Shown piece after piece: positions 2,300 through 6,811 of a stretch of DNA of 6,899 nucleotides; within the stretch, counting starts at the first letter, position 1; every line of letters begins with the position of its first letter. Below the pieces are notes generated by a model, which did no database searches, was not told the origin of the DNA, and worked only from the letters and a program-made list of their open reading frames with translations. Origin of the DNA: Desulfobacteraceae bacterium (GTDB taxonomy: Bacteria > Desulfobacterota > Desulfobacteria > Desulfobacterales > Desulfobacteraceae); contig JAAEMC010000357.1 in assembly GCA_024225895.1 (NCBI GenBank), positions 1 to 6,899 on the forward strand, read 5' to 3'. The position numbers were made by a program, and so were the translations under genes.

Positions 2300-3337
2300 A
2301 TGAAAAAATTAACAGTAATTGCTGTCTCTATTGCAATGGTGGCGACCTTTGCAATGACAGCCGCAGCCTCGGAGTGGAATTTCTATGGTTCTGCTCGCAT
2401 GACTACTTTTGTGGAAGATCTGGATGTACCTGGCGGGGAAGATATCACCACACTAGACAACTCTCTGCAGAGCAACTCCCGTATTGGTGCAACAGTTAAA
2501 GTAAGTGACGCAGTTGGCGGCGGTTTTGAATACGGTACCACCGTCAATCTTCGTAAACTCTATGGTACCTGGAATTTTGGTGCCGGCGAACTTCTCATAG
2601 GTCAGACTTATACACCCTTTAACCTGTTTTATTCCAACCAGGTCTGGGGCGGTGATAATGACCTTTTGAGCTATGGTGCTATCTATGCCGGCCGTCACCC
2701 CATGATTCGACTGAAATTTGGTGATTTTCAGATTGCCGCCATAGAGCCTGAAACAGATATGCTGAATTCTGGTGTCAACTCTTTTACAGAGGTGACTTTT
2801 CCCAAAATTGAAGCCAGATACGACATGAATTTTGGCGCACTTACATTGAATGTAACCGGTGGTTTCAACACATATGAACTTACTGATTCAGACACCGGTG
2901 TTGCTCATGACGTTGATTCTTATGTTTTGGGTCTGGCTGGAAAAGTTAACTTTGGTCCGGCGTATATTGCGGGTAATGCCTGGTTTGGAGAGAATGTTGG
3001 AGTATATGGTATTGCAAACTCCCCTGTTGATGATCCTACAATCACCGGCAGTACACTCAGTGACAACGATGCTTATGGATTCATCTTTGTTGTTGGTGCA
3101 AAACTCAACGACATGTTCTCATTTGAAGCTGGTTATGGTTGGGCGGAAGCTGAGCTTGATTCTGCCGGTTCCAATGAAGATGATGCACAATCTTACTATG
3201 TACAGTCAACCATCACTTTCGTTCCCGGTGTATTCATCGTTCCTGAAATCGGTGTAGTAGATGAAAAACAGGATGCAGCCGGTGTAGAAGAAGCAGAAAC
3301 CGTTTATTACGGACTCAAATGGCAGATTAATTTCTAA
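2300..3337 (+). CDS. Outer-membrane porin-like beta-barrel protein
   Basis: A 345-aa protein with a classical signal peptide: KK at residues 2-3, a hydrophobic core at 4-20, and an AAA cleavage site at 21-23, giving a mature protein of about 322 aa starting SEWNFYGSARM. The mature part has no cysteine and is rich in G, Y, F, N and D. It shows alternating strand-like segments (for example EWNFYGSARMTTFVE, GAELLIGQ-type turns, LTLNVTGGFNTYEL) and ends in YYGLKWQINF. A terminal phenylalanine is the usual signal for the BAM assembly machinery. Length and pattern fit a general or anion-selective porin of the outer membrane; the substrate cannot be read from the sequence. The ribosome site AGGAG (2284-2288) is 11 bases from the ATG, slightly long. 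A strong terminator follows, so it ends its transcript. No CpxR-type GTAAA-N5-GTAAA was seen directly upstream. Confidence 0.88.
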   Translation: MKKLTVIAVSIAMVATFAMTAAASEWNFYGSARMTTFVEDLDVPGGEDITTLDNSLQSNSRIGATVKVSDAVGGGFEYGTTVNLRKLYGTWNFGAGELLIGQTYTPFNLFYSNQVWGGDNDLLSYGAIYAGRHPMIRLKFGDFQIAAIEPETDMLNSGVNSFTEVTFPKIEARYDMNFGALTLNVTGGFNTYELTDSDTGVAHDVDSYVLGLAGKVNFGPAYIAGNAWFGENVGVYGIANSPVDDPTITGSTLSDNDAYGFIFVVGAKLNDMFSFEAGYGWAEAELDSAGSNEDDAQSYYVQSTITFVPGVFIVPEIGVVDEKQDAAGVEEAETVYYGLKWQINF

Positions 3338-3483: not shown

Positions 3484-3704
3484 CAGGGTAAACGCATGTA
3501 ACACTGGCATGAATTTTAATTTTTATTAATTTGCGTTAATGCCCCGTAAAACATTTGGTGCAAATGCTTTACGTTAATGCCCGTAAAACATTTGGTGCAA
3601 ATGCTTTACGGTACTTATGCAAAGCAAATGCTTCACTCGCGTTTACCTTTAAATCGTAACTGCTTGAAATCATTAATGTGGAAAAGTTACATGCGATTGC
3701 CCTG
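3484..3704. mobile_element. MITE-like non-autonomous insertion element, 221 bp, with 10-bp target duplication
   Basis: The left end CAGGGTAAACGCATGTAAC (3484-3502) and the reverse complement of the right end GTTACATGCGATTGCCCTG (3686-3704) agree at 17 of 19 positions. Immediately outside, TTGAGACACC occurs at 3474-3483 and again at 3705-3714, an exact 10-bp direct repeat abutting both ends. Inverted termini plus an exact flanking duplication are the signature of transposition by a DDE transposase. The interior encodes no protein, so any transposase must act in trans. From memory of IS family tables, CAGGG ends with 8-10 bp duplications suit the ISAs1 family; this parent assignment is tentative. 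The interior contains a tandem hairpin repeat. Confidence 0.75.
3535..3609. repeat. Two tandem 37/38-bp palindromic units inside the MITE-like element
   Basis: Unit 1 (3535-3572, 38 bp) and unit 2 (3573-3609, 37 bp) abut and are identical except for one extra C in the first unit's C-run. Each contains a hairpin: CGTAAAACATTTG, a GTG loop, then CAAATGCTTTACG, pairing 12 of 13 positions. A degenerate third partial copy, GCAAATGCTTCAC, lies at 3624-3636. There are no spacers, so this is not a CRISPR array. The structure resembles REP-type palindromes or an internally amplified MITE core. Confidence 0.8.
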
Positions 3705-3734: not shown

Positions 3735-4622
3735 TTAACTTCTAGGATGATACTTTTTATGCATTTCCATAAGGTATTCCCTTGAAATATGGGTGTAAAT
3801 CTGTGTGGTGGAAATATCTGAATGACCCAGCATGGTTTGTACGGACCGAAGATCAGCGCCGCCTTCCAAAAGATGGGTCGCAAAAGAGTGGCGAAAGGTA
3901 TGGGGTGTAATATTTTTTGAAATTTTGGCAAGCAAAGCGTATTTTTTAATAATTTTCCAGAAGGCCTGACGTGTCATGGGTTTTCCTGCACGGGCTACAA
4001 AAAGGTATTCACTTTGCATGTTTTTTAATAGCTGTGGCCGTGCCTGTTCAATCCACTTTCTTGTGACACTTTTCGCTATTGCACCAATGGGAATGATTCT
4101 TTCTTTGGAACCTTTGCCCATCACCCGGACAAGACCGGAATCAAGATTAATATCACGGGTTTTCAACAAAATTAGTTCTGAAACCCGAAGACCAGCACCA
4201 TATATTATTTCCAGCATGGCAAGATTTCGAAATCCCCTTGGTTTTTTTAAATCCGGGACCTGCAGTAATTGTTCAATTTCTTCAACAGATATAATTTTGG
4301 GAAGTGATAACCCTGTTTTGGGGATGTCTACATTTTTGACAGGATTGGTGCTTAAAAGTTTCTCATTGACTAAAAATTTATAAAAGCCCCGGATAGTAAT
4401 CAGATGACGGGCTCTGGATTTCGGGGAAAGGCCTTTGCGAGTCATGTTTACAAGCCAGCCCAAGATGGTTGCTGTGTCGGTATGATTTAAATTGTATATT
4501 TTATTGTGTTCAAGAAAGTTTAAGTATTCTGCCAGGTCAGCAGAATAGGATTCAATGCTATTATGGGAGAGCCCTTTTTCAATTAAAAGATGATCAATAT
4601 ATTTTTGGGAAAGCTCATCCAT
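3735..4622 (-). CDS. xerD: XerD-type site-specific tyrosine recombinase
   Basis: A complete 295-aa recombinase, close to the 298 aa of E. coli XerD. The N-terminal SAM-like core-binding domain covers about residues 1-90 (YIDHLLIEKGLSHNSIESY). The catalytic domain follows with all expected residues: R146 in GAGLRVSEL, K170 in GKGSKER, H241 and R244 in HTFRHSFATHLLEGGADLR, H267 in LGHSDISTTQ, and nucleophile Y276 in QIYTH. The ending HKKYHPRS matches the XerD rather than the XerC style. XerD with XerC resolves chromosome dimers at dif near the divisome under FtsK control; here no dif-like site was found. It starts 3 bases after the stop of the acidic-repeat gene (TGA-CCC-ATG), with only a weak ribosome site, so translation is probably coupled. 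A phage or island integrase is less likely given the length and tail. Confidence 0.92.
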   Translation of the reverse strand: MDELSQKYIDHLLIEKGLSHNSIESYSADLAEYLNFLEHNKIYNLNHTDTATILGWLVNMTRKGLSPKSRARHLITIRGFYKFLVNEKLLSTNPVKNVDIPKTGLSLPKIISVEEIEQLLQVPDLKKPRGFRNLAMLEIIYGAGLRVSELILLKTRDINLDSGLVRVMGKGSKERIIPIGAIAKSVTRKWIEQARPQLLKNMQSEYLFVARAGKPMTRQAFWKIIKKYALLAKISKNITPHTFRHSFATHLLEGGADLRSVQTMLGHSDISTTQIYTHISREYLMEMHKKYHPRS

Positions 4623-4625
4623 GGG

Positions 4626-6770
4626 TCACAAAGATATCTCTGAGATACATCTGAATCCAATGGTATTGGATGTGAATTCCGGGGTGAAAAGTCCCCTGGA
4701 GCTGATGGTCACTGTATTCTTGGAATTCCAAGCACCACCTTTTGCAATAGCGTATTTAGTATCTTTTTTGGTTTTAAAAGGGGCATTCTCCATATCACAG
4801 GTCCATTCCATTACATTGCCTAACATGTCCGAGATATTAAACGAATTGGCGTGGGTGTCATATTCATCCACAGTAGTTGTATCGGCAATGGCACTATCTT
4901 CCATATTACAACAGTGGATATTAAAATCATTACCCCATGGATATTTGTTTCCAATATCGGTTCTGGCAGCAGCCTCCCATTCCGCTTCCGTGGGAATTCT
5001 ACGCCCAATCCAGGCGGCAAAAGTAAGGGCATCATCAACACTGACCTGGACCACCGGATGATTGCGTTTTCCATTCAAAGAAGATTTGGACCCTGAGGGT
5101 TTATACCAACATGCACCTTTCACCTCTTTCGAGCCTGATGTTTTTTGCCAGCTAGATCCCTTGGTTTTTTTAATAAACCGGGAATGAAAAACAGTACCGG
5201 AGCCCTTTTTCTCTGCTGTGGTGACATAGCCTGTTTCCTCGATAAAAATTTCAAAAAACGCATTAGTTATGGGGTACATTGCAATATATACCCTGGGCAT
5301 TTCAAATTGTTGAAGCTCAAGACTGCTTTTAAGACTTTTTAGGGCACCCACCGTATAAAGGCCTTCCGGGACTTCTACATATTTATTGAATTGTTTTTCT
5401 CTTTCCCCGAGGATTTCATCAAATTGTTCTGCCAGTTCCCGCTTTTCCCTGAATTCATCCAACGCCTTTTGTTCTTCTTCATCCAGTTCATCCAGCTCTT
5501 CTATATCTTCATCTTCATCCAGCTCAATTTCTTCGACATCATCATCTAATTCTTCAATCTCTTCAAGTTCCTCATCTTCATCAAGTTCAATCTCTTCTAC
5601 ATCTTCGTCTTCATCTATATCTAATTCCTCAAGCTCTTCATCCTCATCCAGATCGATCTCCTCTAACTCCTCATCCTCATCCAGATCAATTTCTTCTAAC
5701 TCCTCATCCTCATCCAGCTCGATTTCTTCAATTTCCTCATCTTCGTCCAATTCCAGTTCATCAATTTCTTCGAGTTCCTCGTCTTCATCCAGTTCGATCT
5801 CCTCAATATCCTCGTCTTCATCCAGATCGATCTCCTCAATTTCTTCGTCCTCATCCAGCTCAATCTCTTCTAATTCCTCATCCTCATCCAGCTCGATCTC
5901 TTCAATATCCTCATCCTCATCCAGCTCGATCTCTTCAATATCCTCATCCTCATCCAGCTCGATCTCTTCGATTTCCTCATCTTCATCAACTTCAATTTCC
6001 TCTACTTCTTCATCTTCTTCTAATTCCTCATCCTCATCCAACTCAATTTCTTCAAAGTCAGCATCTTCATCCAGGTCGATTTCTTCTATTTCATCATCTT
6101 CATCCAGATCAATTGTTTCAAATTCGTCATCCTCCTCATCCTCTTCAACAACCTCGATCTCCTCATCTTCATCAACTTCTATTTCCTCTACTTCCTCCTC
6201 CTCCTCTTCGCTTATTGCCTCTTCAAGTCCTTCAACAGGGAAACCTTCGTGGGCAATTTTATTTAAAATATTTTCAATCTGGCCGACCACATCGTGGGCT
6301 TCAAGCTCTTCATTGGAACCTTCGAAATTATCTAGAAAGTCGGTGATCAGCTTTAACAGACCTGCAGCCTGATCAATATCAACATCCCCGGCTTGTACTG
6401 CATTGGTAAATGAATGCAGCAGATTATTTTTTGCCTCCTCTGACATGTCAAAGGTATTGGCATCCGTGATAACTATATTTTCGGGATTCTTATCTTTTTC
6501 GCTGAGTTTTTTAAGGTCTGCAGTAATGGATGATTTGATGGAAAAGAAATTTCTTCTTTTAGCTTTGAGTTTGGGCAGGCTGTCGCCAACATCCCATATA
6601 GTCTTGATCAGTGTATCAGTTTCAATCTTTCGGATTTTTAAAATGTCGTCTTCTGATGTATAAAGTTCCCTTATGGCAAGGATCGCCTTTTGTTTTACAG
6701 ACTTCTCCCGGTAATTCAAGTTGGCGATTGCCTCATCAATTCCTTCCAATGAAATGGATATATTTGCCAA
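4626..6770 (-). CDS. Acidic 11-residue-repeat protein with a C-terminal FGE/SUMF1-like domain lacking catalytic cysteines
   Basis: A 714-aa protein with no signal peptide or membrane segment, so probably cytoplasmic. Residues 1-180 are a mixed-charge helical region that I do not recognise. Residues about 183-434 are roughly 70% D+E, with no lysine or arginine between K171 and K435, and carry about 18 LDEDE-type repeats, mostly 11 residues apart. Residues 435-465 are a charged linker. Residues about 466-710 match the formylglycine-generating-enzyme (SUMF1) fold: MYPITNAFFEIFIEETGY, HPVVQVSVDDALTFAAW, RRIPTEAEWEAAAR, YPWGN, NISDMLGNVMEWTCD, KGGAWN and NTIGFRC. In true FGEs the segment after GGSW holds two copper-binding cysteines; here it reads NSKNTVTISSRG, so sulfatase activation is unlikely. 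A binding role, as in other lectin-fold SUMF1 relatives, is inference. The start is TTG at 6770, ten bases after AAGGAG; the nearer ATG at 6777 is out of frame. It is first in an operon with xerD. Confidence 0.85.
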   Translation of the reverse strand: MANISISLEGIDEAIANLNYREKSVKQKAILAIRELYTSEDDILKIRKIETDTLIKTIWDVGDSLPKLKAKRRNFFSIKSSITADLKKLSEKDKNPENIVITDANTFDMSEEAKNNLLHSFTNAVQAGDVDIDQAAGLLKLITDFLDNFEGSNEELEAHDVVGQIENILNKIAHEGFPVEGLEEAISEEEEEEVEEIEVDEDEEIEVVEEDEEDDEFETIDLDEDDEIEEIDLDEDADFEEIELDEDEELEEDEEVEEIEVDEDEEIEEIELDEDEDIEEIELDEDEDIEEIELDEDEELEEIELDEDEEIEEIDLDEDEDIEEIELDEDEELEEIDELELDEDEEIEEIELDEDEELEEIDLDEDEELEEIDLDEDEELEELDIDEDEDVEEIELDEDEELEEIEELDDDVEEIELDEDEDIEELDELDEEEQKALDEFREKRELAEQFDEILGEREKQFNKYVEVPEGLYTVGALKSLKSSLELQQFEMPRVYIAMYPITNAFFEIFIEETGYVTTAEKKGSGTVFHSRFIKKTKGSSWQKTSGSKEVKGACWYKPSGSKSSLNGKRNHPVVQVSVDDALTFAAWIGRRIPTEAEWEAAARTDIGNKYPWGNDFNIHCCNMEDSAIADTTTVDEYDTHANSFNISDMLGNVMEWTCDMENAPFKTKKDTKYAIAKGGAWNSKNTVTISSRGLFTPEFTSNTIGFRCISEISL
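5481..6182 (-). repeat. 33-bp coding tandem repeat array (acidic repeats)
   Basis: The array encodes residues about 197-430 of the 714-aa protein. The unit is 33 bp, giving 11 residues of the form I-E-L-D-E-D-E-(E/D)-(I/L)-E-E, about 18 units in all. The phase is disturbed near residues 250-260, 335-340 and 400-416. Copies at 5875-5907 and 5908-5940 are identical at the DNA level, and 5941-5973 differs at only two bases. Other copies differ mainly at synonymous positions, so the array is mostly old with a recent local duplication. The purine/pyrimidine-biased strand makes it prone to slippage. Confidence 0.93.
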
Positions 6771-6777: not shown

Positions 6778-6811
6778 TTTCTCCTTTTAATTGAGTTTAT
6801 GCTAGCTTTAC

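Follow-up and report, generated by a model that had tools for sequence, protein, structure and literature searches.

An acidic repeat tract in a Desulfobacteraceae protein and the conserved gene neighbourhood of its relatives

Runs of aspartate and glutamate, the D/E repeats, have been studied in eukaryotes as autoinhibitors (PMC10250230). Here we describe a bacterial protein with a run of this kind, encoded on contig JAAEMC010000357.1 of a Desulfobacteraceae bacterium (assembly GCA_024225895.1); the whole stretch analysed, 6,899 nucleotides, is called the window. The run lies between a domain predicted to be a winged helix and one that resembles FGE. The odd low-complexity repeat turned out to mark a conserved and apparently undescribed gene neighbourhood, whose members are a topoisomerase-like protein predicted to have lost its catalytic parts, an FGE-like domain that lacks the FGE cysteines and, in many loci, an additional ParA. 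The architecture, and the partnership of genes seen in relatives, have good support. The gene and its domains are as follows.

4626..6770, minus strand: gene of the 714-residue protein (predicted winged helix, polyanionic tract, FGE-like domain)
6781..6786, minus strand: AAGGAG upstream of the TTG start codon of this gene
6411..6749, minus strand: N-terminal domain, residues 8–120, predicted winged helix
5469..6230, minus strand: polyanionic 11-residue repeat tract, residues 181–434, predicted disordered to residue 300
4644..5384, minus strand: FGE-sulfatase domain (PF03781), residues 463–709, without the FGE active-site cysteine pair

The acidic tract in the window and in relatives

The tract contains 59 aspartates and 122 glutamates, 181 of its 254 residues (71%), and a single glycine. 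No lysine or arginine occurs between K171 and K435, a stretch of 263 residues (172–434). Identity reaches 0.63 at lag 11, falls to 0.18 and 0.25 at the neighbouring lags 10 and 12 and peaks again at 22 and 33; TRF detects a 33-bp tandem array in the DNA. Searching by pattern yields 17 units of the form I-E-L-D-E-D-E-E-(I/L)-E-E, with hydrophobic steps of 2, 6 and 3. The initial annotation had counted about 180 acidic residues, seen no K or R at 172–434 and described this period and these steps, all correctly; the span it gave, 5470–6210, is close, although the tract actually covers 5469–6230. Over the 266-residue linker, lag-11 identity is 0.61, whereas 60 composition shuffles stay at or below 0.38 for all lags between 5 and 40, so the repeat exceeds chance.

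Codons were compared at lag 11 over residues 187–434. The proportion of nonsynonymous differences (pN) is 0.22 and that of synonymous differences (pS) 0.68, a pN/pS of 0.32; the same comparison at lags 9, 10, 12 and 13 gives 0.73, 0.95, 0.82 and 0.65. Thus the repeat is no recent noise: the units have diverged well at synonymous sites while being conserved as protein. A value of 0.11, from units picked by their amino acid pattern, is biased low, and the unselected lag-11 value is used here. One neighbouring pair of units is identical in DNA. AlphaFold2, in a metal-free model extending to residue 300, gives the tract no structure (pLDDT 41–48). By composition, and by the disorder predicted to residue 300, it is a long disordered D/E-rich region like those of the D/E-repeat proteins. 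On the plus strand, a 328-residue serine-rich open reading frame (5386–6372) lies antisense to the tract and is probably a mere by-product of the acidic codons.

A search with residues 1–180, as the initial annotation had proposed, shows that the architecture recurs: PF03781 is present in all 66 homologues. Their linkers span 34–339 residues, and 65 of the 66 are 50–71% D/E. The lone exception, P0051, has a 34-residue non-acidic linker. Within the order the gene is found in 65 of 291 genomes, within the class in 113 of 389 and within the phylum, Desulfobacterota, in 18 of 395; one of the last 18 matches stands at E 8.5e-4. Each positive genome has one match, indicating a single-copy gene. Named relatives with the gene include Desulfobacula, Desulfotignum, Desulfobacter, Desulfospira and Desulfamplus.

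For the analysis of charge, identical duplicates, proteins truncated at contig ends and reading frames without the FGE domain were removed, leaving 75 proteins, 74 of them with a linker longer than 30 residues. The reading frames without the domain that lie away from contig edges include L061, L065, L125 and L129, which have masked residues, and L117, which has none. Net charge is negative in all 74 linkers (−7 to −269, median −108.5), at a density that varies from −0.70 to −0.18 per residue, and both flanking domains are near zero charge in the 75 proteins.

Period, motif and spacing were analysed in 72 tracts, short linkers being left out. Internal periodicity exceeds that of shuffles in 50 tracts, but the period is not fixed: the best period is 9 in seven tracts, 21 in six and 11 in five, every other value being best in three or fewer. 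Among hydrophobic residues, the spacings 3 (1.37; significant in 40 tracts) and 9 (1.36; 32 tracts) are enriched, 11 (1.20) and 6 and 8 (1.13 each) more weakly so, and 1, 2 and 4 (0.60–0.63 of expectation; 0.60 for 2 and 0.63 for 4) and 7 (0.82) are depleted. The motif [ILVF][DE][DE][ILVF] was observed 853 times against 281 expected and is enriched in 57 tracts, with a median of 10.5 per tract and 22 in the window. Neither a strand nor an amphipathic helix would account for such spacing, whereas a structure with three residues per turn would, and so would a short motif. The strand-like I-x-L step of the initial annotation is, as a spacing-2 pair, depleted overall, yet its acid-flanked form [IV][ED][LVI][ED] is enriched (298 observed, 165 expected; significant in 21 tracts); the step therefore characterises the window and only part of its relatives. 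Judging from the sequences, the sign of the charge and the hydrophobic spacing persist in a probably disordered region, and the repeat unit does not.

The gene neighbourhood and its topoisomerase-like member

Near the gene in relatives are found F0, the gene of a topoisomerase IA-like protein, F1, the gene of a protein of about 140 residues, and F2, a ParA gene. At least 4 kb of upstream sequence makes 58 of 71 loci assessable, and genes within 3 kb were counted. F0 is present in 56 of the 58, 36 of these also having ParA. The combinations are F0, F1 and ParA in 36 loci, F0 and F1 in seven, F0 alone in 13, F1 and ParA in one, and none in one, so that ParA is present in 37. The gene and F0 are usually divergent; in L113–L116 F0 is on the same strand, and in three of these four the called reading frames overlap by about 16 bp.

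The two genes also occur together by genome. Among the 389 genomes of the class, both are found in 106, the tract gene only in seven, F0 only in 10 and neither in 266, though these figures are approximate and make no correction for kinship. Matches below E 1e-30 were counted as F0 and weaker ones taken to be ordinary topoisomerase I; at least two genomes that count as positive, G106 and G138, carry a full-length relative of 835–837 residues instead of F0. The mismatches are contig-edge cases, short zinc-ribbon forms of F0, or G192. Three genomes without a match to the tract gene, G002, G186 and G193 (L172, L174, L175), encode proteins of 161, 102 and 131 residues whose match to F0 is confined to its zinc-ribbon and tail end, that of L172 lying near a contig end.

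The strength of the tract follows the proximity of F0. In 52 complete, non-identical loci, the 43 with F0 nearby have tract charges of −35 to −269, whereas the four without it have 0, −7, −21 and −25 (p 0.001); the other five, with less than 3 kb upstream, were set aside, one of them being L077 (−17). In L073 and L076, from one genus, the linker is mixed-charge or short, and a full-length F0 relative is located elsewhere in the genome. At L046 an in-frame deletion has removed the tract and parts of both flanking domains; F1 and ParA are kept and F0 is absent, the single match in that genome being of ordinary topoisomerase I level.

F0 has C4 zinc ribbons and a basic tail, and its predicted structure contains the domain IV/winged-helix fold of type IA topoisomerases, to which it is alike in these three respects. 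The best structural match of the modelled F0 spans chain positions 157–591 but aligns only 169 residues, passing over the start and a long section in the middle. The Toprim domain and the catalytic lobe are absent from the one modelled F0 of the usual form, and scans of two F0 proteins gave no Toprim match. L195:1426-3933 and L196:2070-4583 encode full-length proteins like topoisomerase I that have a lysine-rich tail and match PF01131 and PF01396. In the L195 protein the active-site motif is altered: the Tyr of ITYMRT in S. mutans topoisomerase I aligns with Phe and its Arg with Ser, two active-site residues. L196 has a sub-cut-off Toprim match (E 0.005). The full-length forms are possible intermediates between topoisomerase I and the short F0, which the model predicts to be topoisomerase I-derived with its catalysis lost.

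The window protein matches PF03781 with 150 bits (cut-off 23.3), and its FGE-like domain aligns over the whole length with FGE structures such as 1y1e (E about 1e-32). It belongs to the family by this match and lacks the cysteine pair: of the two active-site cysteines, one is matched by Ser and the other by a gap, and no column there holds more than four cysteines among 78 relatives. The sole nearly invariant cysteine is that of GFRC (residue 708; 76 of 78). The protein further differs from the FGE family by its attached winged-helix head and acid linker. Foldseek with the N-terminal domain gave no match better than E 0.47.

The ParA of the module is related to Soj. Four single-contig genomes have a ParB gene next to a different ParA elsewhere, so the module ParA is additional there. 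In 15 of 30 P-loops examined KGGxGK[S/T] is missing and only GK[S/T] is kept (L036, L038, L042, L048, L051, L056, L059, L061, L074, L075, L078, L084, L086, L088 and L090), with arginine in place of lysine in L036 and L042. F1 has no significant relative in Pfam or PDB. In a PADLOC search for anti-phage defence neither the window protein nor F1 nor ParA had a match; F0 had only a weak LmuB match (E 4e-5, residues 196–424, spanning its predicted long helix), and a role in defence was rejected.

In the window's own assembly (81% complete, 1184 contigs) F0 and F1 were not found, nor was a close ParA (best 7.6e-9) or any ParA of chromosomal strength. Only 129 bp of the contig lie upstream of the gene. 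With so fragmentary an assembly and a contig end here, the module in this genome, and with it the partner genes of the window protein, is inferred from the sequences of relatives. Downstream, the window contains one further gene of interest.

3735..4622, minus strand: xerD-type tyrosine recombinase (TIGR02225), 3 bp downstream of the 714-residue gene

XerD is a dimer-resolving recombinase. The match is 370 bits (cut-off 329.6), and the gene is likely co-transcribed with that of the 714-residue protein. The family is found in 20 of 59 loci, at most four genes downstream in 19 of these. The rest of the window holds adjoining minus-strand genes for an OmpR-type response regulator (717–1409) and a presumed sensor kinase (1–720), an LTXXQ protein (1561–2145), a 345-residue protein without a Pfam match that gives a porin-like impression (2300–3337), and a 37-bp tandem repeat of 2.2 copies (3530–3610) in the gap downstream of xerD.

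Possible functions of the tract

We tentatively favour, at slightly less than even confidence, a tract that acts as a polyanionic arm, disordered and mimicking DNA, within a module associated with the nucleoid; its electrostatic mechanism is inferred. The arm would link the predicted winged-helix domain to the FGE-like domain. In trans it would compete with DNA for F0, at its basic tail and zinc ribbons, and in cis for the window protein's own putative DNA-binding head. The module would then bind the nucleoid only where a real target displaces the arm, and ParA would position the complex. Of the suggestions in the initial annotation, an extended polyelectrolyte is supported, and both DNA or nucleoid-protein mimicry and a charged spacer are still live. 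Against a link between the tract and F0 is the lack of correlation between tract charge and F0 tail charge (rho 0.16, n=56); tract charge is likewise uncorrelated with F0 net charge and with GC. A wider proposal is doubtful: a phylum-wide nucleoid machine in which a catalytically dead, polycationic-tailed topoisomerase I and the polyanion protein form an electrostatic condensate on DNA, positioned or segregated by an extra ParA and encoded near XerD.

A charged entropic spacer, which would hold the FGE-like domain off the N-terminal head, keep the protein soluble, resist collapse through its charge and bind nothing, is rather unlikely but has several observations on its side: the wide range of linker lengths, the sequence drift, the predicted disorder, the short non-acidic linker of P0051 and the same missing correlation with the F0 tail. 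A spacer needs neither the exclusion of K and R over 263 residues nor the recurrent [ILVF][DE][DE][ILVF], and its charge should not follow the proximity of F0, yet it does. The motif would instead suit a multivalent scaffold, whose acid-flanked hydrophobic i+3 motifs would dock copies of a partner in a condensate with the F0 tail, moved by ParA. The enriched spacings 3 and 9, the depleted 1, 2 and 4, the many motifs per tract and the frequency of nearby ParA genes agree with such a scaffold. We consider it improbable, however, as 13 of 58 loci have F0 with neither F1 nor ParA nearby and no docking partner was identified.

A fold that orders on Ca2+ or Mg2+, such as a solenoid, has very little probability in our judgement. 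The regular 11-residue period of the window and some relatives and the enriched [IV][ED][LVI][ED] would fit it, but the metal-free model shows no structure, the period is not conserved, spacing-2 pairs are depleted overall and a single glycine in 254 residues is unlike RTX repeats. The repeat fold that the initial annotation had suggested is not supported as a conserved one, period 11 being best and significant in only five of 72 tracts. Its view that the tract is no hendecad coiled coil agrees with the steps of 2, 6 and 3, the depletion of spacings 4 and 7 and the lack of a modelled helix. Solenoid and coiled coil are thus both disfavoured by the unstructured model, the drifting period and the hydrophobic spacing. 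Neutral low-complexity expansion by replication slippage, for which the tandem DNA repeat, the lineage-specific periods and the DNA-identical pair of adjacent units speak, is no more probable than the cation-ordered fold, given the pN/pS across the tract, the negative charge of all 74 linkers and the pattern of tract strength with F0 adjacency. The initial annotation would have taken homologues with the same ends and no acid as a sign of such expansion, and here the outcome is mixed: P0051, one of 66, is of this kind, and the tract is weak or deleted in a few loci; that the four judged weak-tract loci have no adjacent F0 argues against merely neutral expansion.

Comparison with known systems

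A literature search, within the accessible text of its sources, found no published description of the module. As in the ParA/MinD cargo-positioning systems (PMC10241942), a ParA gene is located beside other dedicated genes; the module differs in that no ParB/McdB-like gene was recognised and ParA is optional (37 of 58 loci).

The D/E-repeat proteins of the HMGB1 type offer the other comparison (PMC10250230). The window protein resembles them in its predicted disordered acidic run, attached here to a domain that may bind DNA, and competition with DNA in cis would be expected for it too. It differs in being bacterial, in the length of the tract (about 250 residues) and its place between two domains, in the hydrophobic residues every few positions, and in the gene of a basic-tailed partner that is located nearby in relatives. 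The tract thus provides a bacterial D/E-repeat case with natural variants, strong near F0 and weak or deleted in a few loci without it.
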